A DNA stretch of 24,616 nucleotides, taken from the IMG/VR virus record IMGVR_UViG_3300045997_000140, positions 1 through 24,616 of that record. One strand, written 5' to 3'. The number at the start of each line of letters is the position of its first letter. Within the stretch, counting starts at the first letter, position 1. A program made the position numbers and the translations under genes. Under the pieces are notes generated by a model. The model made no database searches. It was not told the origin of the DNA and worked only from the letters and a program-made list of their open reading frames with translations. This DNA comes from a virus. This document shows, one piece after another, positions 5,524-22,963 of this stretch.

Positions 5524-6023
5524 GGAGCACCTGGGGGCAGCGCGGGGGTTGTGGACAGCTCGACGGCCTCAGCGTCCACCACAGCGGATTTTTGAAGTAG
5601 TCGCTCAGCCTGCTCTAGCTCAGCGTCGGTGAGCTGACTGAGGTCGCGAGCCACGTGCTCCACGGTGCCCGAGTGCTCAATCGACACATTAGACGGGGCG
5701 GTGCCATTCCGTCGCTCAGCGAGCCACACAGCCGCCTCATAGCGCTCTCTGATAGTGGGTCCGACCTGCGGAATGAGCGCAGCGCTGGCTGCGTCCTCAC
5801 CTCGCTCGGGCTTGCGGCTCGGGCCCGACACGAGCCCGTCACGCACAGCGATAATGAACTTGATCGAATTCTCCGCGTTCGGGCCGTCGAGCCGGTCAAT
5901 CAGATCCATTATCCCACTAGGGCGCCCGCCCGGATTAGGCGATTTCATGCCCTTTTTCCACGCGGGGTTACCGCCTGGCCGGCGCTGCGGCTGCGGCGCT
6001 GTCTGATTGTTCTCAGTCGGCAT
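5520..6023 (-). CDS. Probable terminase small subunit with DUF5681-like N-terminus
   Basis: This encodes 167 residues from ATG 6023. The frame extends upstream to 6188, but those 55 codons cross the intergenic promoter region and lack protein-like composition. A CTTGACAC box lies exactly 36 bases before ATG 6023, which supports this start. Residues 15-40 (R-R-P-G-G-N-P-A-W-K-K-G, then P-N-P-G-G-R-P-S-G) match the Gly/Pro/Arg pattern of DUF5681 proteins, often encoded next to large terminase. The middle (G-P-T-I-R-E-R-Y-E-A-A-V-W-L-A-E-R-R-N-G) predicts as helix. Small terminase recognises the phage packaging site and regulates TerL. Location two genes before terL supports the role. The C-terminal 35 residues are an acidic helix then a Pro-rich tail. 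The call is by motif and context, not fold. Confidence 0.6.
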   Translation of the reverse strand: MPTENNQTAPQPQRRPGGNPAWKKGMKSPNPGGRPSGIMDLIDRLDGPNAENSIKFIIAVRDGLVSGPSRKPERGEDAASAALIPQVGPTIRERYEAAVWLAERRNGTAPSNVSIEHSGTVEHVARDLSQLTDAELEQAERLLQKSAVVDAEAVELSTTPALPPGAP

Positions 6024-9714: not shown

Positions 9715-9788
9715 GCGCGCGTGGTGAAACCGGTAGACACAGCGGTCTTAGAAGCCGCCCTTTGTGGGTTCGAATCCCACCGCGCGCA
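9715..9788 (+). tRNA. tRNA-Leu(UAG): tRNA-Leu (anticodon UAG) with short variable loop
   Basis: A full cloverleaf is readable. The acceptor is GCGCGCG (9715-9721) with CGCGCGC (9781-9787), followed by discriminator A. The D-stem is GTG/CAC with GGTAGA in the loop. The anticodon stem is GCGGT/GCCGC with loop CTTAGAA (anticodon TAG, 9749-9751). The T-arm is GTGGG, TTCGAAT, CCCAC. Anticodon UAG reads CUA leucine. The D-arm (TGGTGAAACCGGTAGACAC) and A73 match bacterial tRNA-Leu, yet the variable region is only 5 bases (9759-9763), not the usual long arm. CCA is not encoded. Leucine identity is from anticodon and D-arm; the truncated arm makes charging less certain. Confidence 0.85.
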
Positions 9789-19141: not shown

Positions 19142-19703
19142 CGTAGCAGCATACGTGGCAAAAATCGTCGCCGCAAAGGGCAACGCGGGCGGCGGCACCG
19201 TGTTTCGTGATGGGCGGTACGTGCCTGCGCTCCGGTCGCTCAAGATCGAGCAAGCTCAGCGTGGGCCGATCGTGTGGCTCAAGGCCGAGTTTCTGGTGAT
19301 CGAGAGCGCGGCGGTTGACGTGCCGCCGAGTCACCGCAACCCCGGCGAGCCCGAGCCGACGCCGAACAAGGCTGGCACCGACGCCTCAATGATCTTCAAT
19401 ATCACTGAGGACACGGGGCTAAACAACGCGAAGGATCTGGCGATGGCTCTGGCAAACAAAGCCAAGGCCGACGTTGACGCGGATCCGACGTGGCTGGCGA
19501 ACTGGCTCACGTCGGCCACGAGCGCGAGTCAGCCTTTCACTGGTACGCCGCTCACGCTCACCACGTTCAGGCGGCAGATCAAGAACGGCAAGAACGCGGG
19601 ACGCATGGGAACGTTCTACAATATGACCCCCTACGCTACCACTCCCGAGGAAATCGGGCAGCTCCGGGCGATGATCCTGGCGAACAAGGCGCCCGCGAAG
19701 TAA
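19128..19703 (+). CDS. Probable phage single-stranded DNA-binding protein
   Basis: This encodes 191 residues from ATG 19128, behind a purine-rich ribosome site. The middle (F-R-D-G-R-Y-V-P-A-L-R-S-L-K-I-E-Q-A) followed by W-L-K-A-E-F-L-V-I-E-S-A matches the 'G-x-Y...v-k...G...A-E-f-x-V-l-E-S' pattern of small phage proteins annotated as SSB-like or DUF669-like, in which this forms an OB-fold core. After a Pro-rich loop comes M-I-F-N-I-T, then a C-terminal G-R-M-G-T-F-Y-N-M-T-P-Y. It lies among primase, helicase and polymerase genes, which suits an SSB. The acidic C-terminal tail typical of bacterial SSB is missing (it ends K-A-P-A-K). The name is inferred from pattern and place. Confidence 0.55.
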   Translation: MGNVDVAAYVAKIVAAKGNAGGGTVFRDGRYVPALRSLKIEQAQRGPIVWLKAEFLVIESAAVDVPPSHRNPGEPEPTPNKAGTDASMIFNITEDTGLNNAKDLAMALANKAKADVDADPTWLANWLTSATSASQPFTGTPLTLTTFRRQIKNGKNAGRMGTFYNMTPYATTPEEIGQLRAMILANKAPAK

Positions 19704-19714
19704 GGTATCGGTGA

Positions 19715-19744
19715 CCAGCCGACCGGAAACGGGCTGGGTTGTTT
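19715..19744 (+). terminator. Hairpin after the SSB-like gene, weak terminator candidate
   Basis: CCAGC (19715-19719) pairs with GCTGG (19733-19737). Inside, CCG-GAAA-CGG (19723-19732) forms a GAAA tetraloop hairpin with a 3-base bulge. It is followed by GTTGTTT. The T content is modest, so it could end the 18950-19703 transcript or be the first domain of the structured RNA that follows. Confidence 0.4.
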
Positions 19745-19834
19745 GGTCGCTGTGGGTTACCTGATCGCGCACCAGGCGAGAGCCATTTAAGGTGTAAGCC
19801 GCGATTCAGCTCGGTTCGACTCCGAGAGCGACCG
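19745..19834 (+). ncRNA. 90-base tRNA-like element with abnormal middle arm
   Basis: GGTCGCT (19745-19751) pairs perfectly with AGCGACC (19827-19833). A canonical T-arm CTCGG-TTCGACT-CCGAG lies at 19810-19826, with 3' base G. The 58-base interior does not make a normal D-arm or a 7-base anticodon loop. Instead TCGCG (19765-19769) pairs with CGCGA (19800-19804), enclosing CACC/GGTG and then GGC-GAGA-GCC. This is an acceptor and T-arm with one long arm, reminiscent of the tRNA-like half of tmRNA but without a tag. It could be a tRNA with a disordered or intron-bearing anticodon arm, or a new tRNA-like RNA. Confidence 0.45.
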
Positions 19835-19842
19835 GTGTAGTG

Positions 19843-20040
19843 CTCAGCGCGTGAGACGCTGAGGAGGACAGAGGTAGGTAACGCTAGGTGCTAGAGAGGA
19901 TCCTATAAACACAGCGGGTCTGACGGCATGACCGGACCTAAAACTTGCGTGGCTGTCGTCTAGTTTCCAGCCACGACCTCCTAGGATTATGACCCCGTGA
20001 GGTCGCGACTCTGGCGGGGCGCTCGAAAGCCTAGCGTTAC
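19843..20040 (+). ncRNA. Structured RNA domain with an 11-bp long-range closing helix
   Basis: No gene is seen here. CTCAGCG, 7-base loop, CGCTGAG forms a perfect hairpin at 19843-19863. GTAACGCTAGG (19878-19888) is the exact complement of CCTAGCGTTAC (20030-20040), enclosing 141 bases. Within it, ATCCTA (19900-19905) pairs with TAGGAT (19982-19987). CGTGGCTG (19948-19955) pairs with CAGCCACG (19968-19975). CCCCG (19993-19997) pairs with CGGGG (20015-20019). GGTC (19917-19920) pairs with GACC (19930-19933). Nested helices of this kind make a folded RNA very likely. It ends 5 bases before tRNA-Gln. I do not recognise it as RNase P, tmRNA or a group I intron. Large tRNA-associated phage RNAs such as GOLLD or ROOL are the comparison to make. 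Confidence 0.6.
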
Positions 20041-20045
20041 TGTTT

Positions 20046-20116
20046 AGGCGTGTCGTCTAATGGCAAGACGCGGGTCTTTGAAGCCCGTTATCTAGGTTCG
20101 AGTCCTAGCGCGCCTG
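20046..20116 (+). tRNA. tRNA-Gln(UUG): tRNA-Gln (anticodon UUG)
   Basis: The acceptor AGGCGTG (20046-20052) pairs with CGCGCCT (20109-20115, one G-U), with discriminator G. The D-arm is GTC, loop TAATGGCAA, GAC. The anticodon stem is CGGGT/GCCCG, loop CTTTGAA, anticodon TTG at 20078-20080. The variable loop is 4 bases. The T-arm is CTAGG, TTCGAGT, CCTAG. G73 and anticodon UUG support glutamine, reading CAA. CCA is not encoded. DNA polymerase starts only one base after the discriminator. Confidence 0.93.
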
Positions 20117-20117
20117 T

Positions 20118-22322
20118 ATGTACGCTCACCGATTCTCACTAGACGCCGAGACGTTTCTAATTCAACCCGGCTTGTTGGCGCCTGAGGGCGTGGTGTGGGC
20201 GTTTAAGATGGGCAGCGAGTCTTGGCTAGAGCCGTTTAAGGCCGGGCTAGAGACGCTGGCAGGCGCGTTGCGCGATGATGTGCTAGTGTGTGGAGCCAAT
20301 ATCGCCTACGATTTCGCGTGCGCGTGCCAGGCTGACCCGGAGCTGTTGCCGCTCGTGTTTGCGCACTACGACCGTGGCGGAGTGTTTGACGTGCTGATTA
20401 ACCAGGCACTGGCTGCCATTGCCGCAGGGCACCTGTTTCAAGACCCACTAGGCGGCCCGCTGAGGATGATTAAACCTGACGGCTCACTCGGCGCAGTCTC
20501 CAACCGCTACTCGTTGGAAATTGTCAACTACCTCAATACCGGCCGCATTGACGCTAAAGCAAATGATATTTATCGCCAGCGCTACGGCACGCTAGCCCAA
20601 ATTCCAATTGAGCAATGGCCAGAGATCGCTCGTCAATACCCGATAGACGACGTGGTCAACACAGATCGCAACGCCGAGATCCAGCTGACGTCTGTGGATA
20701 GGGCGGGGCTCGACAAATTTCAAAACGTGAATGTGCCGATCTTGCGCTACCGCCCGGCGGCCGGGCTTCACGACATGGAGCCCTTTCTAGCCTCGCTCGA
20801 CGGGCGAGCCATCACGCACGGTGCGTTCCAGGCTCGTGCCGCGTGGGCCCTCCACCTGGCGTCAGTGTGGGGGATGCGTACCGACCCGGCCGCGGTGGTA
20901 GCACTGCGCCAGCGTGTAGAGCAAGAGCGTGAAGCGGGGGCGGTGCGGCTTAAGGAGCTAAAGCTTTGGACCCCAGACGGTAAAGAGGACCAAGGCCGTA
21001 TCAAATACAAGGTCGCAGTGGCCTTCGGCGCTGACCCTAACAGCAAGTGCGCCGCGTGTGGTGGTAGCGGCAAGGTCGTTAGCCCTAAATCTGGCAACCC
21101 AATCAATTGTAAGGTCTGCTCTAAGACCGGTCTGCATATTCCGCCGACGGTACCAATGACGCCGACCGGCGGAGTTAAGGCCGACCGAGACACCCTAGAG
21201 CACTCGCACGATCCGGATCTAGAGCTATTGGCGAGTGCGGGATTCGCAGACAAGATCATTGACACCTACCTGCCCGTTCTAGAGGAAGCTTCACGCGTGC
21301 CGCTCAACACGCGCCCCAACGTGCTGATTGCGTCAGCGCGCGCGTCGTATGATGGGCTGGTGCAGACATTCCCGCGGGCTGGTGGAGTGCGCGAAACGTT
21401 CATACCGAGACCGCGTTTCCTTTTTGTGAGCTGTGATTACTCCGCGCTTGAGCTGAGCACCCTGAGCCAGGTGTGCCTGTGGACCGTCGGGTATTCTCGG
21501 CTAGCTGAGGCAATCAATGGCGGCAAGGACCCTCACGCGATTCTAGGGGCGAACCTGTGTGGTGTCTCGTATGAGCAATTCAAGGCCGCTCTAACCGATT
21601 CCGAGTCCAAGGACCGCGCCAAGGGGTTCCGGTTCGGAGCCAAGGCCGGAAATTTCGGGTTCGCTGGATTAATGGGTCCGGCGAAATTCGTGCTGACGCA
21701 GAGAGTTCAAAAGCTCGCCGGGCACGGCTCACTCTGTCGCGTGCTCGGGCGTGAGCCTAAGAGCGGTTGCGGCTCCACCAAGCTCTACGAGTGGCGCGGG
21801 CGCGAGGTGCCGCCTGTGTGTGAGGTGTGCGTGGAGGTCGCGGTTGAACTAAAAGAGGCGTGGCTAACCACGTGGCCCGAAATGAACGATTATTTCGAGT
21901 TCATCAAGCGCATTCCTGGCGTTGAGGAAGGCGCGGGCGTAATCATGAGCCCAGGAACCGGCTACGTGCGCGGTGGGTTGACGGCACCTGAGGCGGCAAA
22001 CCATTGCTTCCAGCACCTCGCGGCAATGGGCGCTAAGCACGCGCTGTACAACACGAGTCGCGAGTGCTACGCGGAGCCCAAGAGCCCGCTGTATGGCTCG
22101 CGCCCCATTCTATTTGCGCACGATGAGATTTTCGGCGAGCTGCCTGAGGATCGAGCGCATGAGGCGGCGCACCGCCTATCTGAGGTGATGACCGAGAGCA
22201 TGCGTGTTTTCGTGCCTGACGTAGATGTAAAGGCCCCGCCCGCCATCATGCGCCGTTGGTACAAGGCAGCGGAGCCTGTGTATGTTGACGGTCGACTTGT
22301 TCCGTGGGAGCCCAAAAAATGA
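20118..22322 (+). CDS. Family A DNA polymerase with 3'-5' exonuclease and zinc insertions
   Basis: This encodes 734 residues from ATG 20118, one base after tRNA-Gln and without a ribosome site. The exonuclease domain shows D9-x-E11, N61...Y64-D65 and Y174...D178. The polymerase shows motif A D440-Y-S-A-L-E, motif B R505...K509...F513 (K-A-G-N-F-G-F-A-G) and motif C H668-D-E, all catalytic residues present. Two Cys clusters look like zinc sites: C311-x-x-C-G-G-S-G with C331-x-x-C-S-K-T-G between the exonuclease and the palm, and C540, C551, C568, C571 within the fingers region. These are unusual for polymerase I. It is the main replicative polymerase. Its stop overlaps the next start as ATGA. 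Confidence 0.93.
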   Translation: MYAHRFSLDAETFLIQPGLLAPEGVVWAFKMGSESWLEPFKAGLETLAGALRDDVLVCGANIAYDFACACQADPELLPLVFAHYDRGGVFDVLINQALAAIAAGHLFQDPLGGPLRMIKPDGSLGAVSNRYSLEIVNYLNTGRIDAKANDIYRQRYGTLAQIPIEQWPEIARQYPIDDVVNTDRNAEIQLTSVDRAGLDKFQNVNVPILRYRPAAGLHDMEPFLASLDGRAITHGAFQARAAWALHLASVWGMRTDPAAVVALRQRVEQEREAGAVRLKELKLWTPDGKEDQGRIKYKVAVAFGADPNSKCAACGGSGKVVSPKSGNPINCKVCSKTGLHIPPTVPMTPTGGVKADRDTLEHSHDPDLELLASAGFADKIIDTYLPVLEEASRVPLNTRPNVLIASARASYDGLVQTFPRAGGVRETFIPRPRFLFVSCDYSALELSTLSQVCLWTVGYSRLAEAINGGKDPHAILGANLCGVSYEQFKAALTDSESKDRAKGFRFGAKAGNFGFAGLMGPAKFVLTQRVQKLAGHGSLCRVLGREPKSGCGSTKLYEWRGREVPPVCEVCVEVAVELKEAWLTTWPEMNDYFEFIKRIPGVEEGAGVIMSPGTGYVRGGLTAPEAANHCFQHLAAMGAKHALYNTSRECYAEPKSPLYGSRPILFAHDEIFGELPEDRAHEAAHRLSEVMTESMRVFVPDVDVKAPPAIMRRWYKAAEPVYVDGRLVPWEPKK

Positions 22323-22963
22323 AAACGTTTGCTGAATATCAGGTTGAAGTCATGCGCACCGCCAGCGCCCAAACCGGCATGGAAGCGCTACTCGTGCGCA
22401 CGCTGGGGCTGGTGGGTGAGGTTGGTGAAGTGGTGGAGCTGATTTTGGGTGTGACTGTGGTCGGTCGACCTCTCGATAAAGACGCATTTACGAAAGAGCT
22501 AGGCGATGTGCTGTGGTATATTGCAGCTCTGTTTCACTGGCTTGACGAATCTAACACCCCCACAATTGTGTTTTCCGTCGTCGAGAACCCGGATGTACGC
22601 CCACTAGCGCGTTTTTTTGATTTTTCTGAGCTAGTCAGCAACGGAATGCGGCTCACCGCGACCGCCGGGCTCGTAGCCGACCTAGTAAAAAAGTTCTTCG
22701 GGCACGGGGCACCCCTGGACAAGAACCGAGTGCTCGCGAATCTGCACCTAGCGCTTGTGCTCACACGTGCTATCGCCGATCTCGTGGGTGTGCCGCTGAG
22801 TGTTGTCGCCGAAAAGAACATTGCCAAGCTTCGCGCTCGCTACCCTCAGGGGTTCAGCGCTGAGGCGAGCAAGGCGCGGCTAGACGAAACGGCGCGCCTT
22901 GAAATGGTCGAGGTGCCTGGAAGTAAGACCGGCCTGGTGTACGATCGGGAGAACTGCTCATGA
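22319..22963 (+). CDS. MazG-like nucleotide pyrophosphohydrolase with degenerate second module
   Basis: I start at ATG 22319 (ATGA overlap; GGGAG upstream), giving 214 residues. The first module has L-G-L-V-G-E34-V-G-E37 and K-E60-L-G-D63-V-L-W-Y-I, the four acidic metal ligands of the MazG/all-alpha NTP pyrophosphatase fold. A second stretch (G-L-V-A-D-L-V-K-K...G-H-G-A-P-L-D...L-V-G-V-P-L) and the ending N-I-A-K-L-R-A-R-Y-P-Q-G-F repeat the same helical plan without the ligands. Phage MazG proteins clear (d)NTPs or alarmones. The protein is about twice the normal core length. It lies between polymerase and exonuclease, so it may tune the dNTP pool. Confidence 0.8.
   Translation: MKTFAEYQVEVMRTASAQTGMEALLVRTLGLVGEVGEVVELILGVTVVGRPLDKDAFTKELGDVLWYIAALFHWLDESNTPTIVFSVVENPDVRPLARFFDFSELVSNGMRLTATAGLVADLVKKFFGHGAPLDKNRVLANLHLALVLTRAIADLVGVPLSVVAEKNIAKLRARYPQGFSAEASKARLDETARLEMVEVPGSKTGLVYDRENCS

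Follow-up and report, generated by a model that had tools for sequence, protein, structure and literature searches.

A tRNA-Gln gene in a tailed-phage fragment is separated by a single nucleotide from the ATG that opens a family A DNA polymerase gene. We confirmed that this junction is real, that it had been correctly described, and that its position is conserved among relatives. The best single mechanism for it is that processing of the tRNA 3' end would release a near-leaderless polymerase mRNA, a plausible reading to which we give a probability of about 0.45.

The window, that is, the whole stretch of 24,616 bases analysed here, makes up an entire IMG/VR record and carries terminase, portal and replication genes. 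It is 61% GC, and ARAGORN found just two tRNA genes in its 24.6 kb, tRNA-Gln and tRNA-Leu(UAG) (Table 1). The CTA codon, which the latter reads, is about as frequent in the window as CTG and CTC, at 24 per 1000. Most relatives of the polymerase came from virus contigs and a few from Myxococcaceae, and the terminase matches were spread widely.

The tRNA-Gln gene and the polymerase start codon

The tRNA matched RF00005 with a cmscan score of 61.3 bits, against a gathering cut-off of 29, with ends exactly at 20046 and 20116. ARAGORN read the same anticodon (TTG) and placed the ends at 20045 and 20117, one base more on each side; it added an identical one-base extension to the tRNAs of the relatives L033 and L002. 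We favour the shorter form because it makes T20053 the conserved U8 and gives a discriminator G that is common to all four relatives. Folded in isolation, the RNA has the cloverleaf as its minimum-energy structure, and score, UUG anticodon and cloverleaf together identify it as tRNA-Gln. The preliminary description had put the discriminator base at 20116 and the ATG at 20118, and both are correct; the span that it gave, 20046-20130, starts in the right place but runs into the ORF at its end.

The ORF matches phrog_17 (E 1.8e-36) and scores 47.7 bits against PF00476, above the curated cut-off of 34.3, which places it in family A. Its exonuclease motif begins at residue 9, and D9, E11 and T12 are invariant among the homologs. 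We take ATG 20118 as the start because an in-frame TAG closes the frame just upstream, the motif begins so early, and most homologs begin at about the same position. A polymerase start further downstream with its own ribosome site, which had been named as a finding that would overturn the idea, was looked for and is absent; a later start is ruled out, since the next candidate is codon 19, beyond the exonuclease motif.

The 20 nt upstream of the ATG pair with the anti-Shine-Dalgarno (anti-SD) sequence at only -2.5 kcal/mol, and 76% of random window stretches bind as well or better. By this measure no SD precedes the polymerase ATG, as is typical of leaderless mRNAs. The earlier remark that any upstream ribosome site would fall within the acceptor stem is right as to geometry. 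Many other window genes, and the starts of polymerase relatives, also lack a strong SD. When starts abutting a tRNA were compared with spaced ones (18 versus 56), SD strength did not differ (p = 0.82), so an SD deficit peculiar to tRNA-abutting starts is unsupported.

Table 1. Positions of the features discussed; entries with an L-number lie on sequences other than the window.
Feature	Position	Strand	Basis and remarks
tRNA-Leu(UAG), second tRNA	9715-9788		ARAGORN
Upstream conserved gene, 191 aa	19128-19703	+	same place in L033 and L053
Non-coding stretch, 342 nt, predicted structured	19704-20045	+	fold z -1.6; six-frame translation broken by stops
tRNA-like minihelix	19745-19834	+	pairing scan; fold z -2.3
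Predicted domain with 11-bp perfect closing stem (19878-19888/20030-20040)	19878-20040	+	z -1.8; ends 5 nt before the tRNA
tRNA-Gln, anticodon UUG, 71 nt, discriminator G, no encoded CCA	20046-20116	+	cmscan, ARAGORN, fold
In-frame TAG within the T stem, upstream limit of the polymerase frame	20106-20108	+	sequence, frame scan
Spacer, 1 nt (T)	20117	+	sequence; between discriminator G20116 and start codon
Polymerase start codon ATG	20118-20120	+	sole possible start
Family A DNA polymerase with 3'-5' exonuclease motif, 734 aa	20118-22322	+	phrog_17, PF00476, homologs
MazG-like gene, next downstream	22304-22963	+	overlaps the polymerase 3' end
Conserved RNA element	L033:2488-2610; L002:5642-5757; L053:541-660; L064:3879-3988		
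Closing stem, 15 bp, GAGTAACCGCGGGCG/CGCCCGCGGTTACTC	L064:3889-3988		ends 6 nt short of the polymerase ATG, which lacks an SD
Phosphoesterase	L142:9870-10412		starts 2 nt past tRNA-Trp; no clear SD
Phosphoesterase	L175:4455-4952	-	starts within the CCA end of tRNA-Met; no clear SD
HNH endonuclease	L119:1776-2177		0-2 nt past tRNA
DNA methyltransferase	L119:2729-3313		0-2 nt past tRNA
Small terminase	L078:1185-1802		0-2 nt past tRNA
PHROG-annotated ferredoxin	L090:330-938	-	0-2 nt past tRNA

Relatives of the locus and junctions in other phages

Among about 45 polymerase loci gathered by polymerase searches, a tRNA-Gln lies just before the polymerase only in one clade (support 100/99), formed by the window, L053, L033 and L002. 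The spacer between tRNA and polymerase is 1 nt (T) in the window and 2 nt (TT) in L053, a separate contig that has no SD outside the tRNA. It is 16 nt in L033 (TTCAGGAGCAACGCCC), where the SD, AGGAG, lies wholly outside the tRNA and begins 4 nt past the expected cut, and 117 nt in L002, with an SD ahead of the ATG at 5941. The window and L053 polymerases are merely 46% identical, yet both junctions measure 1-2 nt, and as judged from these sequences such a pair is more telling than a single junction. The two are not sisters on the tree, where the fork that separates them (89/82) is not firm; the tight junction would be either ancestral to the clade or a product of two separate events.

Between relatives the acceptor stems are wholly replaced (AGGCGTG/CGCGCCT, TGACCCG/CGGGTCA, AACCCTT/AGGGGTT), yet seven pairs and the discriminator G are kept. 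Because the stems always remain paired, the tRNA looks functional and under selection. The same replacement means that the 3' strand beside the ATG is dictated by pairing, with no ribosome site conserved there. In L053 the acceptor stem contains an SD-like AGAGGGG (anti-SD pairing -8.6 kcal/mol), which could be due to chance or could be a site usable only on uncut RNA. The sister L064 has no tRNA before its polymerase, and its start is equally SD-less, so the SD-less polymerase start may be older than the tRNA.

The product of the conserved gene upstream of the window's tRNA-Gln is 46% identical to its L033 counterpart (E 2e-57) and 37% identical to that of L053 (E 5e-25), and has no match in PHROG or Pfam. 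The stretch between this gene and the tRNA contains no long ORF in six-frame translation, and its predicted fold is somewhat more stable than those of shuffled sequences; a scan found no sigma-70-type promoter between the gene and the polymerase and no intrinsic terminator next to the tRNA. Within it, the minihelix combines a perfect 7-bp acceptor (19745-19751/19827-19833), a canonical T arm (19810-19826) and a G discriminator but lacks D and anticodon arms of normal form; 0.025 such elements are expected per shuffled window, and this one is perhaps a decayed tRNA.

In L033, L002, L053 and L064 the corresponding place, after the upstream gene and ahead of tRNA-Gln or the polymerase, is taken by an RNA element with the core UCGGGC...GArCAy...CCCGCUArGCCCGA, which a pattern scan found in just these four contigs. 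Its members score 88.7-117.1 bits with model R1, which was built from these same four sequences. The window reaches 2.6 bits at best, and we rejected the idea that it carries the element; the intergenic regions of the window, L002 and L033 have no Rfam match. In L033, L002 and L053 a hairpin loop can pair with the strand just before the tRNA to form a predicted pseudoknot (GAAGG/CCUUC, GAGGG/CCCUC and GGUGG/CCACC). Compensatory changes occur at two of these five pairs and at one more in the hairpin stem, in a three-sequence test alignment that joins the two ends of the element and omits its core.

To see the junction against a wider background, we counted spacings downstream of 872 unselected phage tRNAs on tRNA-carrying virus contigs. 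For 12 of them, an ATG within a few nucleotides of the tRNA 3' end opens an ORF of 100 aa or more, and in 5-nt bins there was no excess at zero spacing. Several of the 12 ORFs are probably spurious. Several junction ORFs are genuine genes, with matches to families that in some cases start at the N terminus (Table 1; L142, L078 and L090 come from a pattern-selected set outside the unselected count). A junction unique to the window phage is thus ruled out, as genes of unrelated phages also abut tRNAs. Given 12 of 872 and no peak at zero, the junction by itself is what compact genomes give; it is a recurring product of such genomes, whether or not it is put to regulatory use.

Proposed processing of the tRNA and competing explanations

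The mechanism that we favour begins with a transcript probably shared by tRNA-Gln, the polymerase gene and the conserved upstream gene, which lie on one strand. RNase P would trim the 5' end of the tRNA. With no CCA encoded and a U following G20116, known enzyme rules predict that RNase Z or a host equivalent would cut after this discriminator. The released mRNA would start 5'-U-AUG and would be translated near-leaderless, without a Shine-Dalgarno site. In evolutionary terms, the tRNA-Gln would have come to lie with a structured intergenic RNA region on one side and, on the other, a polymerase start that perhaps already lacked an SD. On the 3' side of the tRNA, L033 and L002 would carry, or have regained, a spacer that includes a conventional SD.

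RNase Z is reported to cleave CCA-less tRNAs immediately 3' of the discriminator and to be inhibited by a C at the next position (PMC7479834); the earlier prediction of U-AUG as the product, should RNase Z cut here, follows from this published rule. In the four relatives the discriminator is followed by U, UU, UU and UA and in none by CC, a pattern compatible with such a cut, and the SD just outside the tRNA in L033 is the layout expected if an excised mRNA is translated. The exactness of the junction, the sole start codon, and the SD-less tRNA-ATG junctions before genuine genes of other phages likewise point toward processing. So do the shared position of tRNA-Gln throughout the clade, with the 2-nt junction of L053, the acceptor stems that vary in sequence yet stay paired, and the lack of a sigma-70-type promoter match upstream of the polymerase.

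Against processing stand the possibility that compaction is explanation enough, the SD-like run in the L053 stem, and L064, whose SD-less start in a locus without the tRNA means that a missing SD need not relate to tRNA excision. Initiation at the second position is also probably weaker, since in mycobacteria starts at +2 to +5 look weaker than those at +1 (PMC4633059). With B. subtilis RNase Z in vitro with cobalt, half of the products were cut 5-6 nt downstream (PMC7479834), a position that here would destroy the polymerase start codon, and some hosts have no obvious RNase Z (PMC3848588). A limited search of the open-access literature found no leaderless mRNAs made by RNase Z in phages or bacteria. 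The claim in the preliminary description that polymerase expression depends on tRNA processing is not established, given the SD-less start of L064 without a tRNA and the normal SDs of L033 and L002.

The main alternative, which we consider possible, is that the junction reflects compaction only and that the uncut tRNA-mRNA is translated, either without an SD, at an AUG that ribosomes can reach, or after the acceptor stem has opened; translation and tRNA processing would then compete for one RNA. This is consistent with the lack of excess at zero spacing, with the scarcity of strong SDs in the window and at the starts of the relatives, and with the L053 stem sequence. The joint RNA also has an alternative predicted fold, at -34.1 kcal/mol compared with about -31.9 kcal/mol for the parts apart, that breaks the cloverleaf, but the gap is small and the calculation ignores tRNA tertiary structure and modification. 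What is more, a tRNA that stays folded at a distance of one base would be expected to keep the 30S subunit from binding at the AUG, the acceptor is conserved in its pairing but not in its sequence, and L033 keeps its SD outside the tRNA. A promoter inside the tRNA gene, with initiation at or near the ATG, would yield a leaderless mRNA without any processing, and start-codon promoters do give common leaderless transcripts in mycobacteria and Propionibacterium (PMC4633059, PMC3848588). We think it improbable here, however, as a scan of 19600-20200 limited to sigma-70-type promoters gave no match, positions -12 to -7 read TAGCGC and so lack the final T of a -10 box, and the tRNA sequence is constrained by pairing while its acceptor half varies among relatives.

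Elsewhere in the window stops and starts often overlap, which might suggest translational coupling of the polymerase to a frame ending near its ATG. The frames that pass through the tRNA, however, are just a GTG frame of about 30 codons (20050-20142) and one of 12 codons that opens with the ATG at 20060 and stops at 20095; both start inside the tRNA, and the upstream gene has already stopped at 19703. With no credible frame entering from upstream, we rejected coupling as very improbable. We also give very little weight to an assembly or sequencing error that deleted a spacer: the window is a single metagenomic contig and its two nearest relatives, L033 and L002, have spacers, but the tRNA and the polymerase frame are intact, and at this very site L053, another contig whose polymerase has diverged, shows a junction of 2 nt.

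Possible tRNA punctuation in phages and comparison with known systems

Bacterial tRNA-mRNA operons such as thrU-tyrU-glyT-thrT-tufB are made as one transcript, from which tRNA processing separates the protein gene. In that operon the protein gene retains a leader with a ribosome site, unlike the polymerase of the window.

The closest parallel is tRNA punctuation in animal mitochondria (Ojala, Montoya and Attardi 1981, cited in PMC4394434). The likeness lies in a tRNA 0-2 nt before a coding start, whose 3' cut would leave a near-leaderless mRNA; the difference is that the window has one tRNA before one gene, its other genes are not delimited by tRNAs, and processing is a proposal. The comparison drawn in the preliminary description thus holds for closeness, with the tRNA on the same strand and within 0-3 nt of the start in both the window (1 nt) and L053 (2 nt), but not for delimiting at both ends genome-wide, given two tRNAs in 24.6 kb. 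Even the polymerase has no tRNA at its 3' end, as the MazG-like gene overlaps it.

An SD-less AUG is shared with the leaderless mRNAs of lambda cI, mycobacteria and Propionibacterium (PMC4633059, PMC3848588), and closeness to the 5' end is predicted here. Those mRNAs are made by start-codon promoters, and the leaderless transcripts in PMC4633059 are stated to arise by transcription, not processing, whereas the 5' end in the window would derive from tRNA maturation. The leaderless mRNAs made by MazF in E. coli (PMC3848588) resemble the proposed one in being products of an endonuclease; MazF is a stress-induced toxin that cuts mRNAs, whereas the cutter here would be an ordinary tRNA-maturation enzyme.

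On this sequence evidence, a mitochondrial-style reading of the junction appears plausible and is partly supported. The spacer series, from 117 and 16 nt (both with SD) down to 2 and 1 nt, makes the idea directly testable. A broader view, that tRNA punctuation is a recurring expression device of phages by which diverse genes set directly behind tRNAs obtain mRNAs with little or no leader through maturation of the tRNA 3' end, seems to us rather unlikely; if true, it would tie expression of polymerase, phosphoesterase, HNH endonuclease, methyltransferase and small terminase genes to the tRNA-processing enzymes of the host. Should tRNA maturation form the 5' end of the polymerase mRNA, mitochondrial-style tRNA punctuation would exist in phages, the expression of a replication gene would hang on host tRNA processing, and the placement of phage tRNAs would gain a function beyond codon supply.
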